A stretch of DNA of 64,000 nt from Actinernus sp. WN-2022 (Eukaryota > Cnidaria > Anthozoa > Actiniaria > Actinernidae). Shown here piece after piece: positions 10,201 to 49,300 of this stretch. The translations under genes and the position numbers were made by a program. The stretch's first letter is position 1. Every line of letters begins with the position of its first letter. The notes beneath the pieces are model-generated. The model saw only the letters and a list, made by a program, of their open reading frames with translations. It searched no databases and had not been told where the DNA came from. The stretch spans positions 38,831,403 through 38,895,402 of the forward strand of contig JAOWCC010001634.1 in the NCBI GenBank assembly GCA_030867875.1, read 5' to 3'.

Positions 10201-13200
10201 ATATCAAGATGTCATCCAGGGGACACCTGCATTTGACACATGAAAAAAAATACAGATAGTGAGGCATTTGACCCACGTAGAAACTACAGATAGTGGGGCA
10301 TTTGACCCACAAAGAAAGTACCACACATAGTGGGGCATTTGACCCATGGAGAAAATACAGAAGTTTACAGATAGTGGGGCATTTGACCCACAGAGAAAAC
10401 TACAGATCAAACTACAGGTCAAGTGATTTGACCCATGCAGAAACTACATATAGTGGGGCATTTGAACACGTAACAGACCCACACAGTGGGGAATTTGACT
10501 ATAAGTTTTCAAATAAGACATGCTGGGGGGTGAGATGATCGTTTTTTGAATTGACAAGTACACTATGAAGCCAGACTCTTCATTTCTGCTGAATTTGTAT
10601 TTTCTTGTTGCTAACCGGCCCTCACCTAGAATAGCCTTTTGCTAAATGTACATGTAGGTAGATTCATTTATTTGACTGTAATTAAACAATTGTTATTATA
10701 AGTTGAAGTAGATGTAAATGTTAAAGATCCTCTGTCGATCATAATGCTTTGTGAGGGTGTAGCTATATATTGTTGCAATTATTTTACCTTCTGGAAATAT
10801 TAAAACCATGCAGTACTAAATGTATTGCAATATTGTTTTTTATGATTTCAAGCTCTGAACTTCATATACAGTATATCATATATAAAATTTGCTTGAGTCA
10901 TGCAAAGTGTAATGGTCCACATAAGGTCTTTAAGGTAAATAACAAATAAACAAACAATCAGAAACTCCCTCAACTTACCAAGTAGTGTATAAATGGCAGT
11001 AATGACAAGAACTACAGCAGCTGATATGTATATATTGAAGCCAACAGCCTCATACAGGAACACACTGCCAGCATAGATATCCACCTGTATGGCAATAAAC
11101 CATATTATTATACATACATATATATAGCTATACATGCATATATAGCTAAGTAATTTAATGCATTATTTTTAAGGTACTGCATGTATGACTGGTCAATTTG
11201 CCATCCATAATTACTTTCGGTATGGACCTTCCACTCACCAATTTAAGTACCCCCCTCGACCGTAAGCCCCCTTTTCCCTAATAAACCTGTCTTCACCTCT
11301 CTAAATTGACTGAAAGGATGGTTCATTACTACAATGTACTGGAGGGCAAAACAAATCTTAATTCATATATATTAATTTTAAAGGTGACTTGTATGAGATC
11401 AGTAGTTATATTAGCAAAACCTGTTTGTAAATGCTATTTTTCACCTCTAATCGATTATCAATCTTTCTAAAACAGCATTTTCCCATGGGGATCACAAGCT
11501 TAATTCATTTGTAAACGAAGTATTATGTCAACATGTGACTGTTTCCTACAAAAGGCCTATTACCAACAACTTACCGTACACACTGACACATTTTGTGTGG
11601 ATATATTGAAAAGACTAATGTGAAAGTCTGCTTGAGTGTTAAAGTACAGTCTGTAGTTTTCTGTTAATGAATCTCAGAATGTTTTTGTCATCCCAGTTAT
11701 AAGCCACCCTGGAAATAATCCCCCCAACCACTAACAAAGATGTATAAAACCCATGCAGGCTTTAATACGATTGTATGAGCAGAATATGTTATGGTATGAA
11801 CTGTAATGTACAGACCTTTAGCTGTCTGCTCGACAAAAACTTATTCATTATAATAACTTGAGAACATCACTTTTAGGGATTAATACATACAGAAGTCTTA
11901 GTGAAGACATATGAGATGAGTGCCACGGCAGTGAGGTATGTCCTGACCCAGCGACTCTGGTAACGTTTCTTTAAGTACTCGGGCATTGTGAATACCTATA
12001 AGATAAATATTCATTGAGTGTATTATTAGTACTGTATTCGTTGACCTGATATGTGTACTTTTTTGTTCATTTTTATTAACTCTTTATTAAGGTGTTGTAT
12101 GTGTCCTGATCATTTGCCTCCCAGTTAGCCCAGTGGTTAAGCACCGCTCTGTTGTGCAGGAGGTCGCGGGTTCAAACCCCAGTCAGACCAGCACTCAAGC
12201 TCTTAAAATAACTTCAGGAGTAGAAGGTGCTGCCTTGACATAGTCCAACAGTAAATGGTTAGACCTTCAGGACTAAGTCAACAGAGGGCCATGTGGAAGA
12301 TTACTATCAGTTCAATACTATCGGGCATTAAACTACAGAGTGTTTACCGGTAATTAATGGTTTGCATAAGAACAGAAGCACTCAATGTCCAGGAATGCAC
12401 AAAGGTGTTAATTGTTCTATTGTTGAAACTTGATAACTCATTGGTTATACACAAATAAATCTCCTAAAAATAGGAAAGAACTCTGATTTCACAATATTTT
12501 TTAAAGAAAACGATTGAAGCGGCCAATCTGTAACTATGTAGAAAGAGAGAAAGAACTCCTATTTGGGGAACATAGTTTTTTTTTATAATTTCTCAGTTTT
12601 TGTTTTAGTGTCTTTCACAACGAGTGATTTCATGCATATTAATTTTAGAACATTAATACCACTAGGCAAGAGATATCTTTAGACTATATAATTGAACCAT
12701 TTTCTATTTGGGATTAATGAATAAATCACATTCATTGTCATGGAACAATAGATCTTGCTCCTGTTCTTATGTGAACTATTACTTTAAAAAGTCAATTTAC
12801 AGAGCTGTAGAAGCCCTGCCATTTCAGTAAGAGTGACTGGCATGTTTTCTCGAAAGTTCTCCCAATATATGTTTAGTTTGTCCCATTTTTTTATACAGTG
12901 AGTCCCAAATAAACTGCACATTTCGTGAATAAATTTTAGTTTGTATCAATTCTATTGGTATAAAATTCCCTGAGTCTCAGGATGATTCCCAACTTTTGCT
13001 TTAGATTCTTGACAAAAAATTGCTGTTATTCCAAAACAGGCCTTGTTTGAGTGCCCCCAGTCTCCCCAGCTGTCAAATTAGTTTGACTTGTCCAGATTTT
13101 TAAAATATATTGTCCAGGGTTGGTTTATCAACAATAATTCAGAATGACTATTAACCTCTAGCTACATGTAGGCCCTTAATTACTACAGTCCATAATTTGT

Positions 13201-15274: not shown

Positions 15275-18200
15275 CAGTCGTTGCCGTTAATGTTGTCCTA
15301 GACATATCCACATATTGATTTATAGCCTTTGTTCAGTTCGCACCTTTTACATAAAGAACGCTAATCAGCCGTGAACGCGCCCTTTGTATTTGGTAACAAA
15401 GAGCCACGGTGGTCTAATGGTTAACGCTCTTGCTTACCAGTTCGAAGCCCCGAGTTCAAGTCTCAGTATCGGCATCGTATCTTTTTTTTTTTTCCTTGTA
15501 TTTTTGTTTTGTTTACATATGTTTCTTTTTGCAGTTTCTTTTTTTATATTGGATAAGAATGGACGATGTAGCTAAAATAATACTGTCAACCTGAAACGGT
15601 CTCAACTTTTCCCAGACTTTCGAAGTAGATAATTATACCAGCACTGACTGAGTACGCCCAAATTACGCTATTTTCGTTTAGAACGGTGTAGCGATTCTGT
15701 TGATGGTTGTGGGTTTGAAAAAGCGTAATTTGTTTTTCTTACACTGTGCCGGGCTTACATGTATATACCAGAAACAGTTTTGAAAATACTAGATACCCAC
15801 TAATTCAAAGTATTATATCTTTGTTTTGAAGTAGGAAGCGATTTTAGCAAGTGTTATGAATTTCATTTGTACTGCTTTTCTGAACTTAGGCAGACTGAGC
15901 GACCTCATTTTTTTTCTCGAGATTTCGAAAACATCGGCCGCGAGACACGGAGCGGACAGTTTTGAAAATATCCGGTAGTCCAGAAATTCTCCAGAATTCT
16001 CTTTGAAACCCATAGTAATGCTTGCATAAGTTGACGAAGTTTTTTCTTTGTGAAGAAAAAGAACTCACATGGAATTAAAGCTGTGTACTCGGCGTAAGGT
16101 TTACGAGTGTTTCACAAACGATAACAAACTTTTGAAGCTACGTCATGGACGATGTCGATGATCAAAATACTACATTCCCTGCGGCAGTGGAAGCTTTTGC
16201 AAAAGAAATGTTCGAACATCCCTTAATAAAATATATGTGGATGATAGGTGTCCTCGGCATTTCAACGGTTAAAAAGAACTCCGTTCTTGTTGTCACGTTT
16301 GAAATAAAAGCTTTTAAGGGAATGCAGTCAGAAAAAAAGGGGAAAAAGAAATGAAAAAAATCTTCGCAGTAACAAAAATGCCGATACTGAGACTTGAACT
16401 CGGGGCTTCGAACTGGTAAGCAAGAGCGTTAACCATTAGACCACCGTGGCTCTTTGTTACCAAATACAAAGGGCGCGTTCACGGCTGATTACCGTTCTTT
16501 ATGTAAAAGGTGCGAACTGAACAAAGGCTATAAATCAATATGTGGATATGTCTAGGACAACATTAACGGCAACGACTGTATATATATATATATATATATA
16601 TAGGTAATAGGTATAATTTCATCAGTCTCCGAAAGTGCTCAATAGCGAACTAGAGCGAAATAAAATAAAATGATGGTGAAGGTTACTTTTCACAGAACAT
16701 TTATTGCTACTCGGAGTTTCATGAAACTCCGAGTAGCAATAAATGTTCTGTGAAAAGTAACCTTCACCATCATTTTATTTTATTTTATATATATATATAT
16801 ATTTGGCCTTAAAGACAATATATATATATTTCATTTTGTGACATACATGTACTTACCGCCCACCACATCATGGATCTGCCTGCCAAGAAATATCCCTCAG
16901 CAGTCTCAGCTTTGCCTCTCTGTTTCCTAAATTTAGACTGAAAAGGAAAATAATGTTGAAATACAGAAAAAAGACCCTTCTCAAATCTTTACAATGTATG
17001 AATCATGCAGTCCAATACTTATAACTCTCTTTTTCTCATCCCCAAATAATCACAGAAGACATTCTAGAACTCTTAAATATTGTTTGGTAAAACTAAGTAC
17101 TAGCTATATAATATTAAAATAATATGAGAATGATATATAAAAAAAATATGAAAGTATTAAAAGCAGTGATTATAGACAAAACAATATCATTTTTATTTGG
17201 AGAATCTTGCACCAACATGGCGAGGTGTTACATTGGTTTGGGCTCCAATAAATTATTCTTTCTAATTTGAATGTTTTCGAAAATATATGTTTTGCTAGTA
17301 TTAATTAGTTTTATTAAAAGTCTTGTGTTGAGGCTGTAAATAAAACTGACTTTTATCAGTTTTCCTATTTTGTTGAAGATAATTTTTGCTTTTCTGTGTA
17401 AAGATTGCATTCACATGGAAAGTGTTTTTCGTCTCCTCATAAACTCTGTAAATTTTGATATTTCATGAGCCTAAAACTTGCGTTGCGTGTTTACCAATAA
17501 GATAGATAGATAGATCGTTTATTACAAATATTTCTCACTTACAGCAAAAACTGAATTACGGAGGTTTACATTAATATGGTTCTAGATAAGTTAACTAAGT
17601 TTTAAGAAGGATATACTATATACTGCTCTAATTAAACTAATGCTATATTACAATTAAAAATTTCTAAATACATCGATTGTAGTTACTTACGATTGTTATT
17701 GTAATCATTTGCGCCCGATATTATAAAGGTGTTTCTATATCTATTAGTTCTACATGATGGTATACACATAGGATTTCTACTCCTTAAGGTAACAGTTGGG
17801 CGCGTTGTATTAAACGGTAGGAGGCCATATAGATTTCCCTCTGGATGCGACAGTATCCTCCGAAATAAACTCTGGCAGAGTTGTGACCTACGGTCCGCAA
17901 GGCTACATAGACCAGAAAAGTTAAGCTGGTCAGAGTACGAAAGCTCGTATCCATATATAATGCGTAGGGCTCGTTTTTGTATTCGTTCAAGTGAACAGCT
18001 AAGATAATCTGGGAGACTATAATGAAATACCGGGCTGGCATATAACAACACAGATTGAATACAGGCAGTATAAAATTGGACAAGTTCGTCTGCAGAAACA
18101 TTAGCGCGCTTAAGCTGAACTAGGAAGTATAGTCTCTTTGACGCTTTTTTGATGGTGTCCGAAATATGAGAGTTCCATTTAAGATTATTCTGTAATGTTA

Positions 18201-21200
18201 CACCTAGAATTTTTATTTCGTCCACTTCACCAAGAGTTGCCTCCCCTACCGTAACGGTGTCATAAATTCTCGGTGTTCTAGAGAACGAGATTTTGAGTTC
18301 TTTACATTTCTTTGGATGCAATTCAAATCTGTTCTGTTTAGACCACTGATCTACACGATTAATTATCTCCTGTGCGTGGCTGCATTCGTTCTTTTTTATT
18401 ACTTCGTGAATCGTGGTATCGTCTACATATTTGAAAATACCATTTGCGGATGGGGCATTCAGATCATTGATCATAACTATGAATAGCCAGGGGCCTAATT
18501 TGGTACCCTGAGGTACCCCTGCCGACACTGACTCCCACTCTGAGAAGCAATCACTTGCAAGCTTAACACGTTGGCGCCTATTCGATAGAAAATCGCAAAT
18601 CCAGTTCAGAATATGCGGGTTTATACCGTAGTTGGCGAGCTTATTAATTAATAGGGTGTGGTCGATGAGTTTTGCAACATGCAGTCACGTGATACCACTT
18701 CGAAGATTGTTGCACATCCAATGGGATTACGAGCTCAATTCATTCGTTTATATTGAAGTGCAGTTTCAGAAAGATTGACAATTGATTGGAGGTGAAAAAT
18801 AACATTAACAAACATTTATCTAATATTAGATAAATGCTTGTTAATGTTATTTTTCACCTCTAACACGATGATCTCGTACAAGTACAAAGATCACTTGACC
18901 ACGTCCTGTAAATGACCTATTAAAGTGGCTTTAAAAAGGTGATGATAAACTAAATAATTAAAATTATTAGTGACAGATTAAACAGGTCCGTGTATTGTGG
19001 TCATTCATTCGTTCTGCTTGCTTGGTATACGATAGTTATTTTTGTATGCCCTTGCTATATTTGATGATTCTATTATTAAAATAACTGTAATATTACTAAG
19101 TCATTTGACAATGTACTTTACTCTATCTGCTGTAAACTATCCTATGTACTACTGTTGGTGTTTGGTGGATTCAACTATGATTTTTTAAATTTATTTTTTC
19201 ATTCGTGTACGTATTTAATTTTGCGGCTACCGTTGCGACTTCCCTCGGATTGAATAACAAATTATTCCGGATTGCTTCGAAAGTAAGCTATTGTTTACAC
19301 CTGTTCGACAATACATGTACGTACACATGTTTTCATCAGTTCACGCAATTGCCACAACTTTAGGATCTTTGTTGAAGCATTGTTGATGCATAATAATGAC
19401 TAGTAATAACTACTTATGTCTGACTTAATCATATATATCATTATTATTTATCATCGACTGAATTTATATGTAAGTCTTAAATAGACACCGTAATTTTCTA
19501 AATATATGTAATGTAATTTTGTAAATATGTAAAGGCACTGTCTGCCACTATCGGTTTTGTAATGCAACAAGCTTTACCGATTAAACATACAGATACAGAG
19601 ATTAGAACTACAGTATTTAACTCGATTTCAAGAGTTATTTATATTCTGCATCGCAAGGTTTAGAGCCGGGAGATACAATGTGTACCGACTGAAGGAATGT
19701 TAACGTCGAAAATTATGCATGAATATATTGCGTATTCAATTCACTGTGAACAAACGCTATACTGGTTTAGTTAAACCTGTTAAACCTCGTCTAAGTTTGA
19801 TCAGCCTTGCTCAAAACTGTTATTCAGGGAGGGAGGGTAAATACGTGAACTCTAAAGTGTTAATTTACATTGCTTTAAAAGCTAGATATGCCCTTGAATT
19901 CTTTTCTCAATTAAGCCAATACATGTACAAAAGAATTCCAAATTGATATTGGCAATAACTGAATTTAATTTAAGAGAGTATAAAGGTGTTTATAGCGTGA
20001 TGTGATTAAACACTTCGAGCTCACTTCTTTAAAAAATAGGCAATACTTTACGTGTTTGGTAAGTATCAATTGAAAATTTGGATTTAAAAAAGTTGTTATT
20101 TTTCATCCTTCAAAATCTAAAACCTTTGGGAATACCACGCCACGTTTTTTACTACCGGCTTTGGTTCATTTCACAAGCGAAAAAAAAACTAAGTTTATAA
20201 GTAAAAACAACACTAAGTCTAACAGAGTTTTACTGATGGATAAGAATAGGAAAACCCCTATAGATGACTGTTTTTGTGTTGTGTGAAATCGCAAATGATA
20301 GACATTAAAAGTTCATTCATGAGATTTTTTCCAGGGGATGAAATTAGCATACTAGCAATAATTCAAAGTTTGGACTTTGCCTTTGGTACCGCGCGTATAC
20401 TATTCTATAATGTTTTTTCTTCGGAAAGGGGAGAAGATGTGTTTATGTTGACTCATAAATAGTGAAAAAATCTGACTGAAGTAATGGACACGTCAGTATC
20501 AGGTTCAAAATAAAGTCATTTCAATGAAGCCACACGTAACGCGGCAAAACTCATTACTATGGTTGCCGGATTGTTGCAATATTCAGTAAACCTATTTTAC
20601 ATTCAGTAAACCCGATTTTATATTCAATAAACAGGTTTTATATTCAGTAAACCATTTTATATTCAGTAAAACCGATTATATATTCAATAAACAGGTTTTA
20701 TATTCAGTAAACCGATTTTATATTCAATAAACCCGATTTTATATTCAATAAACAGGTTTTATATTCAGTAAACCATTTTATATTCAGTAAAACCGATTAT
20801 ATATTCAATAAACAGGTTTTATATTCAGTAAACCGATTTTATATTCAATAAACCCGATTTTATATTCAGTAAACTGGATTTATATTCAATAGAAACGATT
20901 TACGTTCAACGTTTTAGTTCAATAAATTATTGCTTAATATGTTCAATCCTCAACCATTATTTATTCAGTAAACGCCATTTATATTCAATCCCTATTATTT
21001 TATTCAGTAAATTTCATTTATATTCAATAATTTCTGCAGTCCAATATGGTCAGCGGAAGACGAAATTCGCGCGCCATTTGTATCACGTGACTTGCTTATT
21101 GAGAACAAGATGGGGAGGGGGTGGAGAGAAGGATAAGGAGAGGAGTAGCTGCTATCAGAAGTGTTCCCACTAATGATCTAACTCAGGATTCCTCGAGAAG

Positions 21201-22891
21201 CTTATCTTCAGGTACTGATGATGGTTCACTTAAGCTTACAAATATATATGATATAGACCGATTTTGCTATCACTGCACTATCCCTTCATCAAGAAACATA
21301 GCTGGAATGGTAGGTAGCCATGGCCGGGAACGCAGTGTCTGGTTCGTTGTCGCAGGGTCCAAAGCGTCATGACAATAGTATCACTGTTCCGGAAAACAAG
21401 ATGTCATTTTCCCCAAAAGGATAATCTTGAATTACCCGAGAGCTTTATTTATTTATTTCAAGATTCGCCAAAAAGGCAGGTGGGAAAACACTAGGACACG
21501 AAGTCCCCTACAAGGCTTTCAGACCCAAGGGATTTCACATCCAAGGGCTGTTCCTATCATAGTCAGCAAATTCTGATGGATCCACCTAGTCGGCACAGGC
21601 TACTTCAAGTGTCTTTTTCTCAGTTCAAGATGTTTCACCTTTGATTTGTACGCAGTGTACGTATTGGTGACCAAGTCTTCGACGCTTTGGACCCTGCGAC
21701 AACAAACCAGACACAGCGTTCCGGCCATGTCTACCACATGTGCACGGAGCAGATCACGGGAACGACCTACCATTCCAGCTATGTTTCTTGAAAAAGGGAC
21801 ATGGACTGCCAAACCTACAGAGGATAGTGTCGATAGCCAAGTCGGTCTATATCATAAATAGAAGTGAACCATCATAGTACCTGAAACTAAGCTTCTCGAG
21901 GAATCCTGAGTTAGATCATTAGTGGGAACACTTCTGATAGCAGCTACTCCTCTCCTTATCCTTCTCTCCACCCCCTCCCCATCTTGTTCTCAATAAGCAA
22001 GTCACGTGATACAAATGGCGCGCGAATTTCGTCTTCCGCTGACCATATTGGACTGTAGAAATTATTGAATATAAATGAAATTTACTGAATAAAATAATAG
22101 GGATTGAATATAAATGGCGTTTACTGAATAAATAATGGTTGAGGATTGAACATATTAAGCAATAATTTATTGAACTAAAACGTTGAACGTAAATCGTTTC
22201 TATTGAATATAAATCCAGTTTACTGAATATAAAACTTGTTTATTGAATATAAAATCGGGTTTACTGAATATAAAATGGTTTACTGAATATATAATAGGTT
22301 TTACTGAATATAAAATGGTTTACTGAATATAAAACCTGTTTATTGAATATAAAATCGGGTTTATTGAATATAAAATCGGGTTACTGAATATAAAACCTGT
22401 TTATTGAATATATAATCGGTTTTACTGAATATAAAATGGTTTACTGAATATAAAACCTGTTTATTGAATATAAAATCGGGTTTACTGAATGTAAAATAGG
22501 TTTACTGAATATTGCAACAATCCGGCAACCATAATGTACAGCTTCGCTTCGGTTTGGAGTTAAAACCTAAAAGACACTTCAAATTTGGAATCATTCTACT
22601 CTCGTCGTAACTTAGCAGAGTTTTCTACAGTTTAAATCAACATTTGACTGTCTTAGACAACTGCAACAATCACAACAGAAGAACACGACATTACCATAAT
22701 CCACGCTGGCAGATTTTTTTGCGGCCGGGGCAAAGTGCAAACCTGAAAGACTTCATACAACTAGCACAGCCGAACTGAAATCACAGTATACTTACGTATA
22801 AGCCAACTCCTAAACAGAGAATGAAGTAAACTGCGATTATTATCCAGTCGATAACGTGAAGTGTTCCTGCCTTTTGGTCGACGAAAGCCAT
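1051..22891 (-). CDS. SLC5-family sodium/solute symporter (SGLT-like), 12 exons, 3' end missing
   Basis: Plasma-membrane Na+-coupled symporter of the SLC5 family, closest in feel to the sugar-transporting SGLT branch (SLC5A1/A9-like); the substrate is inferred, not shown. Twelve exons with matching phases join into about 542 residues in one open frame, starting at the ATG at 22891. Landmarks in order: a first membrane helix in exon 1; the YFLAGRS motif; [19 protein letters not shown], with the Asn and His that contact sugar in SGLT1; [19 protein letters not shown], which in SGLT1 holds the sugar-stacking Tyr-Trp; [15 protein letters not shown], with the Ser-rich Na2-site helix; and [12 protein letters not shown]. 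Family members are usually about 660-690 residues, so the last transmembrane helices and the C-terminus are absent. Introns are large and filled with mobile elements, but no coding exon is broken. Seen: exons, motifs and splice sites. Inferred: transport activity and sugar preference. Confidence 0.93.
1450..1537 (-). CDS. SLC5 gene exon 11
   Basis: Encodes residues 431-460, 88 nt, phase 0 to 1. A charged start ([11 protein letters not shown], the conserved E(L)..VGR motif) runs into a helix ending MWLPIIQG. The acceptor is TATCACAG and the donor G|GTGAGA. Confidence 0.93.
1798..2170. repeat. Dispersed repeat, family A, copy 1
   Basis: Starts CATCAAATATTTTCTCTCG and carries the sub-palindrome CGATATTTTCTCTCCGCGAGCGGGAAATATC. 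The same sequence recurs at about 31528 and 36336. It lies in intron 10 of the SLC5 gene and is non-coding; probably a non-autonomous DNA transposon. Confidence 0.7.
2291..2435 (-). CDS. SLC5 gene exon 10 (Na2-site helix)
   Basis: Encodes residues 382-430, 145 nt, phase 2 to 0. It contains [20 protein letters not shown] followed by [17 protein letters not shown], the Ser-rich helix whose serines coordinate Na+ at the Na2 site in SGLT1. It ends RPQ|GTAAAT. Confidence 0.95.
2554..2640. repeat. Family B hairpin element (MITE-like), copy 1
   Basis: Two near-perfect arms containing GGCGGCCATGTTGGATGACA, separated by a loop of about 20 nt, begin and end with GACGT-type sequence. Related hairpins lie at 40460, 49940 and 53490. 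Confidence 0.7.
2898..3265 (+). repeat. Eight tandem copies of a 46-bp tRNA-like SINE head
   Basis: Units start at 2898, 2944, 2990, 3036, 3082, 3128, 3174 and 3220, each beginning TTAGCTCAGTTGGTAGAGCA (tRNA D-arm / A-box). Only the last unit runs on into GGGGTTCGAATCCC (B-box / T-arm). Minor variants are GTTGATAG in unit 3 and TCTACAGTG in unit 5. The repeat amplifies the A-box half of a tRNA-derived SINE promoter. Confidence 0.9.
3266..3542 (+). mobile_element. Body and tail of tRNA-derived SINE
   Basis: Follows the last tRNA-like head: TTCGAATCCCGACC, then GACGTGAAAGAACCTGTTGT and AAACTGCACGGCAGC, ending in an (CTTT)n tail near 3525-3540. The body matches the SINE at 24003-24402. Confidence 0.75.
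3766..4433. other. SLC5 intron 9, left part
   Basis: AT-rich intron DNA. Several short CCAATCA/ATTGG motifs occur in both orientations (4050, 4130, 4160), suggesting an old inverted-repeat element. No coding signal was seen. Confidence 0.4.
4434..4651 (-). CDS. SLC5 gene exon 9
   Basis: Encodes residues 310-382, 218 nt, phase 0 to 2. It begins [20 protein letters not shown], the canonical (V)IVQR(C/S)LAAKN..HAKGG motif, followed by a helix ([18 protein letters not shown]) and a Cys-rich extracellular segment ([17 protein letters not shown]) typical of the SGLT disulphide loop. It ends AYPKL across the splice. Confidence 0.95.
4652..5436. other. SLC5 intron 8, right part
   Basis: No exon or well-bounded repeat identified. 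A short open frame around 4936-5118 lacks homology I recognise and has no splice support; treated as non-coding. Confidence 0.4.
5437..5921. mobile_element. Nested inverted-repeat elements
   Basis: A hairpin at about 5461-5538 (GACGGTACGAGGTC with inverse) lies beside an element at about 5565-5900 with inverted ends CCACACCGCGGCAAAACGT. Outside both, GGTGGCCACC occurs at 5440 and 5900. The pattern suggests one element inserted beside or into another. Confidence 0.65.
6076..6251. mobile_element. Short TIR element (MITE-like)
   Basis: About 45-bp inverted ends (TTTCAGCGGTATTGACCC...CACTTCGATGTAATGAA and inverse) flank an interior of about 85 bp. Ends differ by a few bases. Non-coding. Confidence 0.75.
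6456..6748 (-). CDS. SLC5 gene exon 8 (glycosylated loop and WYWCTDQ)
   Basis: Encodes residues 212-309, 293 nt, phase 1 to 0. It opens with [14 protein letters not shown], then a lineage-specific extracellular loop with five N-glycosylation sequons in under 30 residues, then [26 protein letters not shown]. The Tyr-Trp of WYWCTDQ matches SGLT1 Y290/W291, which contact sugar. The exon ends at the conserved DQ|V splice position. Confidence 0.95.
6842..6931. repeat. Family F hairpin element with pyrimidine core
   Basis: Ends AGCCTGCG and CGCAGGC are inverted; the centre is a C/T-rich run (CCCCCCTCCGTTTCCCCCCT). Lies just upstream of SLC5 exon 8 in intron 7. Confidence 0.5.
7504..7808. repeat. 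39-bp minisatellite, about 7.7 copies
   Basis: Unit GCTGCGGCAATGGGCATATC followed by ACCACATACGATACAATAG. Full copies start at 7519, 7558, 7597, 7636, 7675, 7714 and 7753, with a partial at 7792 and a short stub at 7504. Because 39 is divisible by three, several frames stay open, but it sits inside SLC5 intron 7 and the open frames are judged accidental. Confidence 0.97.
7809..8959. other. SLC5 intron 7, middle
   Basis: Contains a C/T-rich run at about 8028-8082 (CCCCTCCCCTCCCCTCC) and a fragment at about 8708-8735 with the family F-like end AGCCTGTTCGCAGGCT. Otherwise AT-rich non-coding DNA. Confidence 0.4.
8960..9287. mobile_element. TIR element with 44-bp perfect ends and internal degenerate minisatellite
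   Basis: Left end 8960-9003 and right end 9244-9287 are exact inverted copies (starting TGGGCTATTGCACTTAATTT). The interior repeats a motif of about 30 bp built on CCCAAAGAATTCCT, eight or so times. Identical ends suggest recent activity. No transposase. Confidence 0.85.
9288..9891. other. SLC5 intron 7, right end
   Basis: Contains weak repetition of CTATTCCAGACTAAATATGG at 9670-9760. No genes. Confidence 0.35.
9892..9972 (-). CDS. SLC5 gene exon 7
   Basis: Encodes residues 185-212, 81 nt, phase 1 to 1. It carries [13 protein letters not shown], matching the diagnostic GGL(A/K)AV(I/M)YTD(T/A)LQ of SLC5 proteins, then a helix ([14 protein letters not shown]). Confidence 0.95.
10250..10500. 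repeat. Degenerate repeat of GTGGGGCATTTGACCCA
   Basis: Six or seven imperfect units of about 35-40 bp carrying GGGGCATTTGACCCA and GAAACTACAGATAGT. The same GGGGCATTTG core appears, inverted, several times at 34390-34745. Confidence 0.75.
10979..11084 (-). CDS. SLC5 gene exon 6
   Basis: Encodes residues 150-185 (last codon split), 106 nt, phase 0 to 1. It starts [13 protein letters not shown], the conserved (D)IFSGAIFI equivalent, followed by a helix ending ITAIYTLLG. The donor is G|GTAAGT. Confidence 0.94.
11364..11575. repeat. Family C element, copy 1
   Basis: Bears TGAGATCAGTAG, TTTGTAAATGCTATTTTTCACC, ATCTTTCTAAAACAGC, TCCCATGGGGATCACAAGC and CATGTGACTGTTTCCTACAA. Related blocks lie at 18690, 34850, 52740, 54085 and 54740. 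Non-coding, within SLC5 intron 5. Confidence 0.65.
11891..11995 (-). CDS. SLC5 gene exon 5
   Basis: Encodes residues 115-149, 105 nt, phase 0 to 0. It begins [12 protein letters not shown], the conserved TMPEYL(R/K)KR(F/Y) motif of SGLTs, and continues into a membrane helix ([17 protein letters not shown]). The donor is GTATGT. Confidence 0.95.
12119..12340 (+). mobile_element. tRNA-derived SINE (second type)
   Basis: Head with A-box-like TAGCCCAGTGGTTAAGCA and B-box-like GCGGGTTCAAACCCC, followed by GACCAGCACTCAAGCTCTTA, AAATAACTTCAGGAG and TAAATGGTTAGACCTTC. The same body type, with GTCTTAAAAT and TCGGATAAGGACG, occurs at 39785-39960. Confidence 0.75.
12341..13252. other. SLC5 intron 4, right part
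   Basis: AT-rich intron DNA without a recognisable gene. Weak inverted similarity around GAACAGAAG (12370) and CTGTTCTTATG (12757) hints at an old element. Confidence 0.35.
13253..13312 (-). CDS. SLC5 gene exon 4
   Basis: Encodes residues 95-114, a 60-nt exon in phase 0 to 0. It codes for a Leu-rich helix ending [10 protein letters not shown], matching the family pattern (LFVPVYIKAG in many members). The acceptor is TATAG and the donor GTAAGT. Confidence 0.93.
13921..14025 (-). CDS. SLC5 gene exon 3 (substrate/Na+ site helix)
   Basis: Encodes residues 60-94, 105 nt, phase 0 to 0. It holds the SLC5 signature [20 protein letters not shown]; the Asn and His correspond to SGLT1 N78 and H83, which contact sugar, and the stretch contributes to the Na2 site. 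It ends SYEWQ|GTGACT. The acceptor follows AATACAG. Confidence 0.95.
14110..14225. repeat. Dispersed repeat shared with 29340-29430
   Basis: Contains ATCCTCAGGCAAAAACCATTGATGGGAA, found in inverse orientation near 29390. Both lie in non-coding DNA. Confidence 0.5.
14520..15015. mobile_element. Inverted-repeat element interrupted by a family D MITE
   Basis: Outer inverted arms at about 14522-14610 and 14925-15015 (GGATGCCAGAGGTTCT, GAAGGCAGGGAGAACC and inverses). The centre is a separate 180-bp element at 14694-14877 with its own ends, so this is one insertion nested in another. Confidence 0.7.
14694..14880. mobile_element. Family D MITE, copy 1
   Basis: Inverted ends AATAGACC.TTTCAGCTTGCC plus TTGCCCCATTTCAGAC; the core has TTGAGTAATGTTTTTT and GAGGAAATGTACCA. 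Sisters at 30846-31048 and 53178-53345 share this order. Confidence 0.85.
15241..15274. repeat. (TA)n microsatellite at element edge
   Basis: A TA run directly abuts the left end of the TIR element; matching runs follow its right end (16579-16602) and the palindrome (16786-16802). Confidence 0.9.
15275..16578. mobile_element. 1.3-kb TIR element with tRNA-like sequence inside each terminal repeat
   Basis: Left TIR 15275-15475 and right TIR 16378-16578 are each 201 bp and almost identical when inverted (one mismatch seen). Both begin CAGTCGTTGCCGTTAATG and abut TA repeats, consistent with a TA target. Each TIR contains a tRNA-like stretch with A-box TGGTCTAATGGTTAACGC and B-box GAGTTCAAGTCTC (15402-15474 and its inverse). 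The 0.9-kb interior has no transposase, only a 69-codon frame at 16146-16352. Superfamily unknown. Confidence 0.85.
16146..16354 (+). CDS. Small open frame inside the TIR element
   Basis: Sixty-nine codons from ATG: an acidic start (MDDVDDQN), a region with [15 protein letters not shown], a hydrophobic stretch ([20 protein letters not shown]) and a Lys-rich end. It lies wholly within the element interior next to the right TIR. No homology recognised; could be a truncated exon captured by the element or chance. Not convincing as a gene by itself. Confidence 0.2.
16658..16785. repeat. Perfect 128-bp palindrome
   Basis: Arms are exact inverse copies about a CATG centre at 16720-16723, with no spacer. 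The outermost part is AAATAAAATAAAATGATGG and the innermost GCTACTCGGAGTTTC. It lies in SLC5 intron 1 or its edge, between two TA runs, and could form a cruciform or a 64-bp hairpin. Confidence 0.95.
16857..16937 (-). CDS. SLC5 gene exon 2
   Basis: Encodes residues 33-59, 81 nt, phase 0 to 0. A basic loop ([12 protein letters not shown]) leads into [12 protein letters not shown], the conserved entry to the second helix. The acceptor is TTTTCAG and the donor GTAAGT. A 5.9-kb first intron containing a LINE and a 2-kb foldback separates it from exon 1. Confidence 0.93.
17495..18675 (-). pseudogene. 5'-truncated LINE: C-terminal half of reverse transcriptase
   Basis: A non-LTR retrotransposon reverse transcriptase, open from about 18675 to 17683 on the minus strand (about 330 codons). 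It contains the fingers segment [11 protein letters not shown], the motif [15 protein letters not shown], the catalytic palm box as YVDD (FKYVDDTT), the KCKELKISF region, and [16 protein letters not shown] followed by the thumb and C-terminal domain ([20 protein letters not shown]). The first half, including the endonuclease, is missing; the break falls at about 18675 next to a family C element. The 3' tail is a (TATC)n run near 17505. A jockey/CR1-like clade is likely. Because the visible frame is intact, it inserted recently. Confidence 0.9.
18690..18945. mobile_element. Family C element with internal hairpin
   Basis: Shows GCAGTCACGTGATACC, CAATGGGATTACGAGCTCAA, TTTCAGAAAGATTGACAATTG, and a near-perfect hairpin at about 18792-18860 (GGTGAAAAATAACATTAACA and inverse). 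It sits exactly at the truncated 5' end of the LINE. Confidence 0.7.
18946..20557. other. SLC5 intron 1, middle
   Basis: About 1.6 kb of AT-rich intron without recognisable exons or bounded repeats. Short open frames (for example 19719-19946 and 20274-20462) lack homology and splice support. Confidence 0.4.
20558..22533. mobile_element. 2-kb foldback element with minisatellite arms
   Basis: Ends TATGGTTGCCGGATTGTTGC and inverse bound the element. Each arm (about 0.8 kb) has an outer minisatellite of TATTCAGTAAACCGATTTTA-type 17-18-bp units (20579-21035; 22070-22515) and an inner unique part with GGGAGGGGGTGGAGAG, GATCTAACTCAGGATTCCTC and GACAACAAACCAGACACAGC-type sequence. The 21370-21690 centre is single-copy. 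The arms are inverse but not identical, with indels. Both inner arms read outward-to-inward through the same short frame ([17 protein letters not shown] in the left arm; NIAGMVG in both), so a 5' gene fragment may have been captured and duplicated. No transposase. Confidence 0.85.
22796..22891 (-). CDS. SLC5 gene exon 1 (start codon, first TM helix)
   Basis: Encodes residues 1-32. The ATG at 22891 is followed by a short hydrophilic lead and then a hydrophobic helix ([20 protein letters not shown]), the usual first helix of SLC5 proteins. The donor is TAC|GTAAGT, phase 0. No clear TATA box was seen upstream; the 5' UTR and transcription start are unknown. Confidence 0.9.
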
Positions 22892-23493: not shown

Positions 23494-24002
23494 GTGTAAT
23501 AGGAGATTAGGACCGACACTAAGAACGCCTGCAAAGGAGCTCGAGGCTATTGGTTATGGTAGACAGATCAAATCAGTTTAGGCTTTCTACAATCTGAGAC
23601 GATAGAAGAACATATCTGACGGCAACCGCGATTTGTTATCGTTCAACCTGCATATATACAATTAATAATCGTTGAACTGGCTAGGCCAGGAGGATATTAT
23701 TATTCTGCTTAAAAACGACCAACAGAAATTCTTATGATAATTTCAAAAAAGACTAGATGCTGAACGTGGCATGGCCCGAGTGCTGAGTTCACATTGTCAT
23801 TGCTGTCGATGTAAAAATCTGAAAGTTTAACTAGTTGTAGTTGGTATAATCAATAATTATAAGTCGATTAAGGTATGCTACGCCGTAGGGAGCGACTAGA
23901 AAATATGTAAGCAAATACCGTGAACAAAAATCCTGCAAAAATACGTTGGATCCGAAGTGAGGACCTATATCTACAGCCAAAAGATAAACAATAAGAATGA
24001 AA

Positions 24003-24402
24003 TGATTAGCTCAGTTGGTAGAGCACGGTCTAGAGTGCGGGAGGTCGGGGGTTCGAATCCTTGGGCAGGGACGTTTATAAATAAGCCGTTGGCCTTGTCT
24101 CCTTCTACTCCTATTAAATCAGTATTTGAAGGGGACGTGAAAGAACCTGTTGTACTACTCGAAAAAGAGCAGGGGATTGTCACCCGGTACAGCAGCCTGG
24201 CCATTGCACTAACCACACACTCAACATTGTAAACTGCGTGGCAGCTATTAGCGCCGTAAAGCAGTCCGAAATAATTCACTGACGGGGTATATGCCGGTGA
24301 GTAATATGTAAAACGCCATGAGACTGTGGTGATATGACGATATATAAATATGGCCATTATTATTATTTTTATTTACTTATTATTATTATTATTATTATTA
24401 TT
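24003..24402 (+). mobile_element. tRNA-derived SINE inserted in a retrozyme
   Basis: Head TTAGCTCAGTTGGTAGAGCA, B-box GGGGTTCGAATCC, body GACGTGAAAGAACCTGTTGT and AACTGCGTGGCAGC, tail (TTA)n at 24357-24402. The uninterrupted sequence GAATGAAAAGTCCG in the array at about 46370 is the empty site, so the insertion limits are known to within a few bases. Confidence 0.88.
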
Positions 24403-24512
24403 AAAAGTCCGAAGACTACAACAAAGCTGATATACAACGTAAAATTCTAACACAAAGCACTAAGGTTAGCTACGCCTGGCACGAAAAGCGCTCCGACCAG
24501 CCTGAGATTGTA

Positions 24513-24557
24513 GCCATAGACAACTGTTTCGTTCTTATTACAACTCGTCAGTATGGC
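24513..24557 (-). ncRNA. Hammerhead ribozyme, type I minimal, degenerate copy
   Basis: Minus strand: GCCATA, the core box CTGACGAG, a stem II of GTTGT/AGAAC around AATA, the second core box GAAAC, a tiny stem III ACAGTTGT, cleavage triplet GTC, and TATGGC closing stem I. Stem II has one G-G mismatch compared with the array copies, so activity may be reduced. Confidence 0.8.
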
Positions 24558-24565
24558 ATAGTGAA

Positions 24566-43300: not shown

Positions 43301-46300
43301 TTTTGTTACCAATTAAATGTTAGACTCTTGGGGATTAATTTGAACTGTTAGAGGGATTGATAATTGAGCTCATGCGATAACAATTGAAATGAGTGATAAT
43401 AAAGTCAACGCAGTCCTTTTATCTTTTGGAAAAAAAATCGCGACAGTATTTTTAGTAAGCGGACGTGAATTCAAAAAGGACCGGAAGTCGAATACTCCCT
43501 CATCGAGCCGAAGTTCGTTCACATGTGACGTCCTCTATGTTATATTTAATAATTATAGCAAGACTGAAGCTAGAGCTATAACGTTTGGGACGAACTTTCT
43601 GTACAAGTGAATAAGTCAGTTGTACTCTTCGGATACTGCCGCACACAGAGACTGTATTTTAAAAGATCGCGAGTGCCTCGGCCAAAATTGTCGTAAATCG
43701 GTCATACCAAATATTTCGTTGAAGAAAATAATGTTATAACACAAGGCTATGAATTGTTATTATTAAATTATCGTTATTTAAATTAAGGCAAGCATTCAAA
43801 ATAATTCCGTTTTGCCGCGACGATCGTACGACTTTAAATTTGTGCCTGGAAGCAAAATAAATAATTTGATAGTTCAGGAAGTCATCTGGTTGCATCCTGC
43901 ACTTGTGTCATGTAACCTCCTTTTATTAATCACTAGCTATTACAGCAAATTAAATATATATAATGTGATCGCGTTGAATCAGTATACTTATACCTGCTAT
44001 ATTTAAATGTACTCTACTAATATTCATCTTGCAAACCTAAGTGGCTTATTATTGGAAAAGACTGCCGGTTTGGACTGGGTCTGCAGTTCGACACCACAAA
44101 ATGGAAGGCCCGCTGTTAAACCAGTGGCAATCCAGGAGGCGATTGAGCGGCCATATCTGTGCATTGGCTAGCGAATGGTCTAAAAAATTCCAGTGCTCGT
44201 AGTTTTAGCCTTTGTTCATGCAGATCGATGCTCGCAAAACTATTGTTTGTGTTCTCCGTAAGAACACGATACTCGCCTGCTCGGCTCGGCGTATTCAGTG
44301 ACCATTCGCTCGCCTTCTCAGAAGTGACGCGTTACTACTGGCTGATCAGACGGCAGTTTGTTCATGTACTGAAGTATTTTTCCATAGCTAACGATTCAGT
44401 TTAGTTAGGCTGTGTAATATTGGTCCGTAATATTTCAGTGTTCTGGCAATTTCCCGTCAGCCGGCTGAATCAAATACTGAACTATAAGTGGTACTCATAA
44501 GATGTAAAAAATAGATTTATATCATATCATATCTTCAAAATGACCAAGACCCATGGAATGAATAACTAGTTGTATTGACTCTTCAGAATCAAATACCGGA
44601 GCACTCTAGTGTTTGAGCATATCACACTTTCCCGCTTTTCCGTGACATTTAATATAGTCCAGGGTTCACTAGACACAGCTACTCCCTTCCTGTTTCACAT
44701 AATACTTTTTCCGGTGTTCTTTCTTTCCACCTATCATGACTAGATTCCTGGAAAGCTGTTGATCACGTAACTAAGTATGTTGAACACGTAACTAAGTATT
44801 GAGTGTGATAACCATCAAAATTGAATTTCGTTTTCTATGGTAGATTTTAAGACTGTCTATGAAATATACGTGTGAAACCTAAGTCAACATTTTCTGCCGT
44901 AGGTACTTCACGTAGGTCAAAAACATATAAACCGACTCAAAAAATACATATCGGAAGTAGTAAACGGCCGCTATTTTGAAAAAAAAATAATCTGAGAAGA
45001 AGACTGGGGATGAGGCTACTATAGCTAGTACGGCCTGAACGTCAAACGCCTCCTCACCTCTTTACCTAGGTGCGGCTGATTTTCAAGCTATATAGATTAT
45101 ACCTGCTGATTTTCAAGCTATCATTTCGTATAGATTATAGCTGCTGATTTTCAAGCTATATAGATTATAGCTGCTGATTTTCAAGCTATACTGATAGATT
45201 TTCAAGCTATATAGACTATAGCTGCTGATTTTCAAGCTATATATAGACTATAGCTGCTGATTTTCAAGCTATATAGACTATAGCTGCTGATTTTCAAGCT
45301 ATATAGACTATAGCTGCTGATTTTCAAGCTATATAGACTATAGCTGCTGATTTTCAAGCCGTATGTAGACTAAAGCTGCTGATTTGCAAGCTATCAGTAT
45401 AACAGTGATATAAACCTGATATAACGCTACTGCTCGTTTATTAAACAGTACGTATAGATCCGCTAAAGAACACAAGCAAGTATTAAACAGCACCGGCTTC
45501 CGGTATAAGAGGGTAAGCCCCTCCTCTTTTCACGCATGGCGAACCTCGAAATTTGAAATTCAAATTCAAGAGCAGAGGAGAACGTAGGCGAGTATATCAG
45601 ACTCTCCTGTTAAAATACAAAATTTTGAGGGGGAATTGTGGGAATTACTGCATGTGATAACCGAGTCCAATAATTGTTTTATCATTCTCGGCCACTGGGA
45701 TTATTTTTTGCAACTTTTAATAGTCGCTGTTTTTACATTCTGATCAAACATGCCAAGTTATTTTCCGACAGCTCAGGAAAGCGAGCCATGTTGACAAATG
45801 CAATGTTACTGCGCATGAGCAGACCATTATTTGCAGCAAAACGGCTTTGCACCATAATGCGCATGAGCATACCATTATTTGTAGGCAGTTATTTGCAGTT
45901 CTCTCGGCCAATCAAAACGACCACGCTTGGCACAAATGACCCTAAAATCTATCACAACAAAGAAACCGAAAATCCAAGTTCGATTGGTTAAGAGGGAGAA
46001 AAGTTATTAAATTTTGAATTTTGGCAATTTCCCCGCCAAAATTTGGCGGGAAATATTCAATACAGAACCATTTACGAAATAACTTCTTCATTCATCTTTT
46101 AGAGTTTAAAATATTTGTTTACGACAATCTAGCAATCAAAAGAGTAAATCGGTACCCACAACCGTATGTTTTTAGAATTTTCAATTTTTGAGAGGAAAAA
46201 CTTTAAAATTCCCAGTGAAAAAGAGGAAACGTCATTATGACGTCATATATTTTTGAAAACGTCTTTTAAAAATAGAAAACTAATAAGCAAATACCGTGGA

Positions 46301-49300
46301 CAAAAATCCTGTAAAAATACGTTGGATCCGAAGTGAGGACCTATGCAGCCAAAAATATAAACAATAACGAATGAAAAGTCCGAAGACTACAGCAAAGCTG
46401 ATATACAACGTAAAAATCTAACACAAAGCACTACGGTTAGCTAGGCCTGACACGAAAAGCGCTCGGACCAGATTGCAGCCATAGACAGCTGTTTCGTTCT
46501 TATTAGAACTCGTCAGTATGGCATAGCAAACAGCACGCAGGCTTCGGTACCACTGCACCATCGACCCGGACTGAGCTAAAAAGCATCTAGTTTCGAGCAA
46601 CAGAAATGCTTGGTTATCGGCTCACACGTCATTACGTGTGGCGAAAAGCCAAAAACCAAGGAAATCTGAACTAAACGTGTCAGTGCCTTGCGAAAGATAT
46701 AGTTATGCTGGCCAGACCAGCTTTATAAATGATGACAACAGGAATGATCGGATCTATATAAGACCTACGGTACAAAAATCCATAATAGAAAACTAATAAG
46801 CAAATACCGTGGACAAAAATCCTGTAAAAATACGTTGGATCCGAAGTGAGGACCTATGCAGCCAAAAATATAAACAATAACGAATGAAAAGTCCGAAGAC
46901 TACAGCAAAGCTGATATACAACGTAAAAATCTAACACAAAGCACTACGGTTAGCTAGGCCTGACACGAAAAGCGCTCGGACCAGATTGCAGCCATAGACA
47001 GCTGTTTCGTTCTTATTAGAACTCGTCAGTATGGCATAGCAAACAGCACGCAGGCTTCGGTACCACTGCACCATCGACCCGGACTGAGCTAAAAAGCATC
47101 TAGTTTCGAGCAACAGAAATGCTTGGTTATCGGCTCACACGTCATTACGTGTGGCGAAAAGCCAAAAACCAAGGAAATCTGAACTAAACGTGTCAGTGCC
47201 TTGCGAAAGATATAGTTATGCTGGCCAGACCAGCTTTATAAATGATGACAACAGGAATGATCGGATCTATATAAGACCTACGGTACAAAAATCCATAATA
47301 GAAAACTAATAAGCAAATACCGTGGACAAAAATCCTGTAAAAATACGTTGGATCCGAAGTGAGGACCTATGCAGCCAAAAATATAAACAATAACGAATGA
47401 AAAGTCCGAAGACTACAGCAAAGCTGATATACAACGTAAAAATCTAACACAAAGCACTACGGTTAGCTAGGCCTGACACGAAAAGCGCTCGGACCAGATT
47501 GCAGCCATAGACAGCTGTTTCGTTCTTATTAGAACTCGTCAGTATGGCATAGCAAACAGCACGCAGGCTTCGGTACCACTGCACCATCGACCCGGACTGA
47601 GCTAAAAAGCATCTAGTTTCGAGCAACAGAAATGCTTGGTTACGTCATTACTATTCAAGTATTTTTCGGGTTTTAAAGAGGAACTGTACTTACTGTACAC
47701 TGAATAGCCGTAATATGGTCTTTTTATGTTTATTCAATTTAGAAAGCATGACTGATGTCAGACCCATGACGTCAGAAAATGTGACGTCACAGGAAACTTC
47801 AGTTCTTAATAACTCAGCAAATATTTATCGTAGAGACTTTAAAATTGCGGCAATCAAAAACACATATTTATGTTGTTGTGATAACATGCTTTATTTCAAA
47901 CGTATAGGTAACGCAGAATTTGACCTTAAAAGGAGTCGTTCGTTATGACGTCACACCAACGTCAATATACAAACGTGTTTGATCCTAAAGACGTTATTTC
48001 ATTTTAATATTAACATACGAAAATTTCGTTAAATTTGACAGCGAATTAAACAAGATGTGCTGGTTTATATATTTTTGGCTCGCTTTTGAGGTAACTTATG
48101 CCAGGCGTGGACGAAAAAATAATTTGAATGATAAAGTAGCTTACCGGACGATAGACTGCGAAATATCTCGGAAAACAAAGACTAATTATGTATTCACAAT
48201 TCTTGAATTCTTATTGGCCGATAACGAATTGCCGCTCTGGGCCCGGTTGTTCGAAGCCCGATTTAGAAGATATTTGTTTCCAAATCTACCAAGACAAGAA
48301 CTTATGATCCACAAACTCTCTCGGTGCGCCATGGCCTTTAATTTTTAGATAAAGTCTGAAATGTTTGAAGAGCGCTTGCTGATATATGATTGAATCGAAT
48401 AAGCTACGTCCCCGTGAGTCCGAACTGTATAGCAATGACGAGTTTTATGCATCGTGATTTCGTCAGTTTCACTTTCAGTTTATATTAATACAGAATCAGA
48501 TGGCTTGTAACGAAGATGGGTAAATGGCGGAATAGGCATTTGTTTAATCTGCATGAAAGCTAACAATTACAATGAATTCATTATTTTAATTTTATTGAGT
48601 CATTATTGAGCCATCTTCCGGTGCTCAAACTGTACACGCAGCAAAATTCTTTATGAAAATGAGTTACGTATTATCGTCACTTTTACAATTCATTTGTCTT
48701 CATTGTTAATTTGGCCTGGGAGTTTTCCCGGACCAGTAAAACAATTGCCTAGCTTGTTGTCTGACGTACATGACCTTTTATTTCATGCAGGTCGTTGATT
48801 TCGAACAAAATAGTAGCTTTAAAAATAGCCATTTACTTGTTTGAATCTCTAGGTCATGCATGAAACAACGCTTAAACCGACTTTCAGAACTTGGTTTGCT
48901 TTCGAGTGACGTCATTGGTTTACTACTTATTGTGTTTACCAGACGGCAATTTTAATAAAACTTAGTCGCAGAAAAAAAGAATTTGGACAAACACCGTATC
49001 ACTATAAATTATTGTTTAACACTTGTACCTCATCTTAAGGCCTAAGCAAACGAGGGTGCTGACAAAGGGACTTAAAAGGGAGTTTAAGAAACCACGACGG
49101 CAAAGTCTAGAACGACGGCATAAAACAATAGCCTTATTTACCAAATACAATAACTGCACGTGAAAATGCACGCATGCCATCGCCTACATCTTAACCGTTG
49201 TCTTCAAAACCATACGTTTACGTATACGTTCCATAGAGAACACGGACGTCAAAAGTAAATCACTCATCTTTCGTTCGGCGTGAAGGGAACTTTATGGTTA

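Follow-up and report, generated by a model that had tools for sequence, protein, structure and literature searches.

A young hammerhead retrozyme family in Actinernus with insertion structures that point to a Penelope-like helper element

Introduction

The closest described relatives of the repeat reported here are the metazoan retrozymes that lack long terminal repeats (non-LTR retrozymes), for which monomers of about 170-400 nt were reported by Cervera and de la Pena in 2020 (PMC7229834; here and below, statements on published work refer to the portions of each paper that were consulted). Penelope-like elements (PLEs) or long interspersed nuclear elements (LINEs) have been named only as candidate helpers of retrozymes (PMC7229834, PMC11722881), and an origin of retrozymes by reduction of PLEs has been proposed (PMC11722881). 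In the Anolis PLE Poseidon, the genomic 'tail' is set by two adjacent internal positions at which reverse transcription starts, and both DNA strands are cut and extended at AT-rich targets (PMC11167929). The PLEs of Adineta display inverted pseudo-LTRs (pLTRs), one of which carries a 31-bp tail; several have target site duplications (TSDs) of 8-10 bp, and others have none (PMC3846280). In addition, the pDo500 repeat of Dolichopoda crickets is a satellite DNA that accounts for about 5% of the genome of D. schiavazzii (PMC2837043). Here, a stretch of 64,000 nucleotides from Actinernus sp. WN-2022 (assembly GCA_030867875.1, contig JAOWCC010001634.1, positions 38,831,403 to 38,895,402 of the forward strand), referred to as the window, was analyzed together with the genome to which it belongs. 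The window contains a head-to-tail array of hammerhead ribozymes with a 513-nt unit, and this array is assigned to the metazoan non-LTR retrozymes, as a member of a young and dispersed family whose movement very probably relies on the machinery of a PLE of the same genome.

The assignment to the metazoan retrozymes had already been made by a sequence-only reading of the window and was upheld. The family shares with the described examples a type I hammerhead, tandem head-to-tail units, a low GC content (42%) and the lack of any long open reading frame (ORF) or LTR (PMC7229834); its insertions are dispersed and some have TSDs, which, when present, are longer than 4 bp in both cases (PMC7229834). 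Unlike the described monomers, the unit measures 513 nt, and the PLE-homologous module, the two fixed 3' ends and the head-to-head arms reported below are not described in the parts of PMC7229834 that were covered. It had also been suggested that both the unit and its length might be undescribed. While the length does exceed the reported 170-400 nt, it is not new on its own, because a self-cleaving hammerhead also occurs in repeats of about 500 bp in Dolichopoda crickets (PMC2837043), cleavage being predicted in the case of the retrozyme. The comparison with pDo500, which is classed as a satellite in that source, is one of description and not of sequence. Like the PLEs of Anolis and Adineta, the retrozyme shows insertions with two internal start sites, a tail on one arm, inverted arms and AT-rich targets; unlike them, it has no ORF, carries a full type I hammerhead and has ~92 nt between the two sites as opposed to a tail of 30-40 bp (PMC11167929, PMC3846280).

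Results

The array in the window spans 1372 bp with zero mismatches between its units (Table 1). All 859 of 859 bases over 46271-47129 are identical to those 513 positions further on, which is the sole run of at least 20 bases at this lag in the window, and the array is therefore bounded at 46271 and 47642. The sequence-only reading had given 46270-47651 and three units; the exact 513-bp repeat and the three ribozymes were found as claimed, while the bounds required correction and the third unit is incomplete, with a length of 346 bp. The covariance model Hammerhead_1 of Rfam (RF00163) produced a type I match on the array (33.2 bits, E 4.8e-6 in 1561 bases), in agreement with the minus-strand cores that had been proposed, and the predicted cleavage points are spaced 513 bp apart, also as proposed. 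Read from the sequence in RNA sense, the core comprises a stem I of GCCAUA/UAUGGC, the CUGACGA and GAAA elements, a stem II of five pairs with the loop AAUA, and GUC at the cleavage site. Stem III is short and lies within the palindrome ACAGCUGU, which would also permit a dimeric hammerhead.

Positions in the unit are numbered c1-c513 in RNA sense, counting from the cleavage site. As a circle of the minus strand, the predicted monomer (42.3% GC) has a calculated minimum free energy (MFE) of -150.4 kcal/mol, compared with -124.4 +- 6.3 in 200 shuffles (z -4.1). The longest open stretch in the unit is 73 codons; no long ORF is present, and hence none with the reverse transcriptase (RT) and GIY-YIG domains of an autonomous PLE.

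Table 1. Coordinates of the features described in the window
Feature	Position	Strand	Remarks
Retrozyme array, 2.67 identical 513-bp units	46271-47642	minus	RNA 3' end 46271 (c213), 5' end 47642 (c381)
Type I hammerhead 1	46478-46522	minus	RF00163; predicted cleavage 46484/46483
Type I hammerhead 2	46991-47035	minus	RF00163; predicted cleavage 46997/46996
Type I hammerhead 3	47504-47548	minus	RF00163; predicted cleavage 47510/47509
Predicted 513-nt RNA monomer	46484-46996	minus	c1 = 46996, c513 = 46484
Site c213, putative reverse-transcription start	46784; also 46271 (array end), 47297	minus	from insertion ends
Site c121, putative reverse-transcription start	46876; also 46363, 47389	minus	from insertion ends
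Module c69-c268, homologous to PLE leader L072 486-677	46729-46928	minus	whole or part also in adjoining units
Second copy, RNA 3' part, end at about c211	23897-24003	minus	87% identity
Second copy, RNA 5' part	24401-24564	minus	90% identity
Second-copy hammerhead, stem II mismatch	24513-24557	minus	RF00163 26.8 bits, E 5.5e-4
Exons resembling sodium/glucose cotransporter (SGLT-like)	1019-1333, 6408-6788, 10848-11162	minus	
LINE-type RT fragment	17683-18684	minus	

The exact 33-nt ribozyme core was found in 923 copies (468 + 455) in the genome examined (1.39 Gb in 1772 contigs), compared with 0 for a reversed control pattern, and the arrays lie in many differing flanks. For these reasons the array is not a product of chance or of an assembly error, the latter being the main doubt that had been attached to the earlier reading. 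The ribozyme pattern gave 0 matches in collections of viral contigs and genome contigs. A total of 39 array loci was taken from the genome; addition of the window's array and omission of three duplicates (L054, L059 and L065, which are copies of L045, L058 and L064, respectively) left 37 loci, and in these the hammerhead is identical in 99 of 102 instances. When position 171 was excluded, substitutions amounted to 6/5279 bases in the hammerhead and 163/46158 elsewhere (Fisher p 0.002). A stronger conservation of the hammerhead than of the rest of the unit is suggestive only, because the units of one array are not independent. The duplicates L045 and L054 have the same flanks and differ in length by exactly one unit, indicating occasional loss or gain of a unit by recombination or assembly.

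The ends of the insertions were determined for 47 arms at the 37 loci. The RNA 3' end is at most 8 nt from c213 in 30/47 arms and at most 8 nt from c120 in 11/47, and two sites (c121 and c213) ~92 nt apart together account for 41/47 arms, the windows around c213 and c120 having been chosen on these same data. The two 3' ends read ...GUUAUU and ...UCUAUU. The RNA 5' ends are scattered (Kolmogorov-Smirnov p 0.11), with no more than six in any 17-nt window. One locus, L055, contributed two arms to this count but was not given double-arm status (unit identities of 91% and 99%, 800 bp apart) and did not enter the TSD test below. The first genome query started at c212 and so favoured copies ending just past c211, and query-phase bias was considered as the source of the two 3' ends. 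It was rejected, as both sites persist in long arms and with a second query phase: 15/16 arms of at least 1026 nt, a length detectable at any query phase, end in the two windows, and the second phase gave, among the matches listed, 11 further loci ending at c119-126 (nine) or c210-212 (two). Past the 3' junction, the AT content is 73% in the first 10 nt compared with 63% at 31-60 nt (45 junctions).

Nine independent insertions are made up of two oppositely oriented arms whose 5' ends lie in the middle (L036, L043, L045, L047, L052, L053, L064, L067 and L069). These double arms have one arm ending at c213 +- 8 in 9/9 cases, and the other ends at c115-122 in 7/9, the remaining two being at c131 and c74. 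TSD-like repeats of at least 7 nt, a length in which any microhomology to the element is counted, were present at 10/36 insertions, compared with 1.8% of 1260 mismatched flank pairs, and double arms make up five of the ten. As several insertions lie within repetitive sequence, their empty sites could be identified. The empty site of L046 revealed a TSD of 10 bp, while that of the double arm L069, compared with copies up to 99% identical, revealed one of 7 bp, indicating that the double arm is the result of a single event. Weaker empty sites were obtained for L034 (3-bp overlap), L042 (2 bp, at 71% identity) and L058/L059 (15 bp, with 14 nt unmatched), and those of L056 (-21 to -38) and L052 (-55) are poorly aligned. 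The fixed 3' ends, the TSDs at some insertions and the empty sites together indicate that the retrozyme family has spread by retrotransposition.

At the array in the window, the 9-nt repeat ACGTCATTA (46229-46237 and 47642-47650) was considered as a TSD accompanied by 33 nt of filler. This candidate was rejected, since alignments of the flanking repeat with its relatives continue through the junction and include those 33 nt, with only 3-4 nt differing there.

TGACGTCA occurs 33 times in the 24 kb that lie at most 300 bp from retrozyme junctions and 20 times in 69 kb farther away (L031-L069 and the window array), indicating that a TGACGTCA-rich repeat hosts several of the insertions. At L046, L058 and L059, retrozymes lie in opposite orientation near one point of a ~525-bp satellite.

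In a genomic search for the GIY-YIG domain, all 150 listed matches, the best 150 of 2691 candidates, exceeded the cut-off. The abundance of PLE-like loci, together with the SGLT-like exons and a PAN-domain ORF in the window, supports an animal origin of the DNA. One recent PLE family is present in tandem arrays; the array at L072 has a period of 3462, at which 2 positions mismatch, and the element has an intact 1075-aa ORF with RVT_1 and GIY-YIG domains. The first in-frame ATG lies at L072 682, just downstream of a leader (L072 486-677) that aligns with c69-c268 of the retrozyme with a score of 96, the maximum in 200 shuffles being 46. By BLASTN the match is 65% over 147 nt (E 1e-5), which was reached in 0/1000 shuffles. 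These alignments show each full retrozyme unit to hold a non-coding module of ~200 nt that is, by this comparison, homologous to the stretch upstream of the PLE ATG.

The ends of the PLE copies were mapped in the same coordinates. With a first query, 20/42 copies end at L072 612-623 and 1 at 517, while 21 reach the end of the query; with a second query, 34/40 end at 606-621, while the other 6 continue past these positions. The two lists overlap in loci and contain duplicates. Of the independent head-to-head PLE insertions examined, 13/13 combine an arm that ends at 499-535 with one that ends at 598-622; these insertions were chosen by eye as minus-then-plus neighbours among the best 150 of the 2691 candidates, plus two from the end mapping. 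In this set, L073, L074 and L075 represent one insertion, C1435 and C1085 repeat C685:55.27 Mb and C702, and the oldest arms, L088 and L089 (~79% identical), are placed less precisely. In the alignments, c121 is equivalent to L072 523, and c213 to L072 616 (BLASTN) or 619 (module alignment). The aligned sites and the paired arm ends together therefore indicate that the two sites are common to the retrozyme and the PLE and are used alike by both.

An Rfam search of the PLE found no hammerhead. A hammerhead-like motif (CUGAAGA, a hairpin, GAAA and GUAC/GUAC) is present at L072 431-470 without a match in Rfam, and the retrozyme hairpin at c273-c298 resembles its stem II (21/26 nt, E 0.059). The PLE ORF (L072 553-3780) contains the sequence ...DVELNPGP... 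near its N terminus, which we take to resemble a 2A ribosome-skipping peptide.

The structure of the arms also bears on the template. The longest arms are 4515 nt (8.8 units), whereas a self-cleaved linear monomer would yield at most 213 nt from c213 and 121 nt from c121, and the template must therefore be circular or an uncleaved multimer. The insertion structures thus argue against the cleaved linear monomer, which, judged by these lengths, is too short to have templated most arms. The variant 171T/A is uniform across the units of every array displaying that position (L041 is not covered there), and every unit of L060 and L061 carries both T121C and T168A. Both arms of L064 carry an insertion at 322, found at no other sampled locus besides the L064 duplicate, and both arms of L069 carry T202C and T395C, which are unique among the sampled loci. 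The shared variants fit one template molecule per insertion, as from a circle; a homogeneous source array would fit them equally.

Discussion

The data support a PLE helper for this retrozyme family and fit an origin of the retrozyme through PLE reduction. One route that would connect the observations begins with transcription of the arrays on the ribozyme strand, after which the hammerheads would cut the multimer at GUC and the monomers would be circularised. The PLE protein would recognise the ~200-nt module, as the insertion ends suggest, and these ends also point to reverse transcription starting inside the RNA at c121 or c213, with nicked AT-rich DNA as the primer. If the template is circular or an uncleaved multimer, the enzyme would pass its start point and so generate head-to-tail arrays, with the RNA 3' end fixed and the 5' end scattered. 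Priming by both DNA strands, usually one per site, would give a head-to-head double arm. From these sequences we infer the helper role of the PLE in trans, the self-cleavage and the circular RNA.

Several observations weigh against this proposal. The majority of insertions (26/36) are without a TSD-like repeat of 7 nt, the array in the window has no clear TSD, and the repeat at L049 is no TSD because its empty site shows a 6-bp deletion. Six of the 47 arms end off-site (c74, 131, 204, 223, 226 and 496), the identity of the module is only ~65%, and the units of L035 are mixed, with T121C in 2/4. The listed GIY-YIG loci include other ORF lengths, and it could be that another PLE family is the source of the enzyme. 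As for the ribozyme, the score falls 0.8 bit short of the curated gathering cut-off of 34, which is why an Rfam scan of the whole window at the gathering threshold gave zero matches. A plain MFE fold, which takes no account of tertiary contacts, pairs the core CUG with CAG in place of stem III, stems I and II being kept.

It could be that the same PLE helper acts with no circle, long uncleaved multimeric transcripts being copied and the ribozyme being dispensable for movement. This is a possibility to which we give some, though clearly the lesser, credence. Insertion of the Anolis PLE is as efficient with ribozyme mutants as with the wild type, the RNA used being mainly unprocessed (PMC11167929), whereas circular RNA is a known product of other animal retrozymes (PMC7229834). 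The variants can be read in both directions: a homogeneous source array would yield homogeneous new arrays, and the mixed units of L035 are in line with copying from such transcripts, but most arrays share variants internally and the two arms of L064 and of L069 share variants specific to their locus. The lower substitution rate in the hammerhead, with the dependence between units already noted, also speaks against a dispensable ribozyme.

The other two explanations dispense with the PLE. Twin priming is a LINE-type source of inversions, and the head-to-head arms might be such inversions if a CR1/Jockey-like LINE enzyme moved the retrozyme. A LINE-type RT ORF does lie within the window (Table 1), and fixed 3' ends with 5' truncation are also produced by LINEs; twin priming, however, predicts neither a second fixed outer end nor single arms using either site, nor the occurrence of the identical two ends and the module in the PLE of the genome, and this explanation is regarded as improbable. 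An ordinary satellite, with unequal exchange or rolling-circle excision as the means of its amplification as DNA, would account for head-to-tail arrays and for the difference of exactly one unit between L045 and L054. The sampled loci are mostly short with differing flanks, two fixed 3' ends, TSDs in some cases and empty sites, which leaves the satellite explanation with hardly any probability.

What the present analysis adds to the family assignment is direct genomic evidence for the helper and for internal initiation at two sites. No report of matched start sites together with a shared module was found for a retrozyme in the open-licence part of PubMed Central, covered mostly as titles and the beginnings of abstracts. 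The matched sites and the module name a specific helper, so that the question of what moves the element becomes testable with one protein and one RNA. It may also be, with a chance that we place a little below even, that metazoan retrozymes in general are Penelope parasites carrying a copy of the two-site reverse-transcription entry module of PLEs, the PLE enzyme entering the ribozyme-made RNA circle and running round it, with priming from both strands. If true, this would account for the tandem arrays and for the fact that the two element classes coexist, and animals would offer a system for the copying of a small, catalytic RNA circle into DNA.

Other features of the window

A second, diverged copy of the retrozyme lies at 23897-24564 with an identity of 87-90% (Table 1). 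It is interrupted by a tRNA-like short interspersed nuclear element (SINE) with an (ATT)n tail at 24004-24400, for which the Rfam tRNA model gave 16.7 bits, below the cut-off. Eight tandem 46-bp units at 2896-3267 resemble the 5' part of a tRNA gene, as does the head of this SINE. Opposed arrays of a 20-bp repeat at 20579-20901 and 22204-22512 surround ~1.3 kb, an arrangement reminiscent of a DNA element with very long terminal inverted repeats. The window also holds an ORF with a PAN domain.

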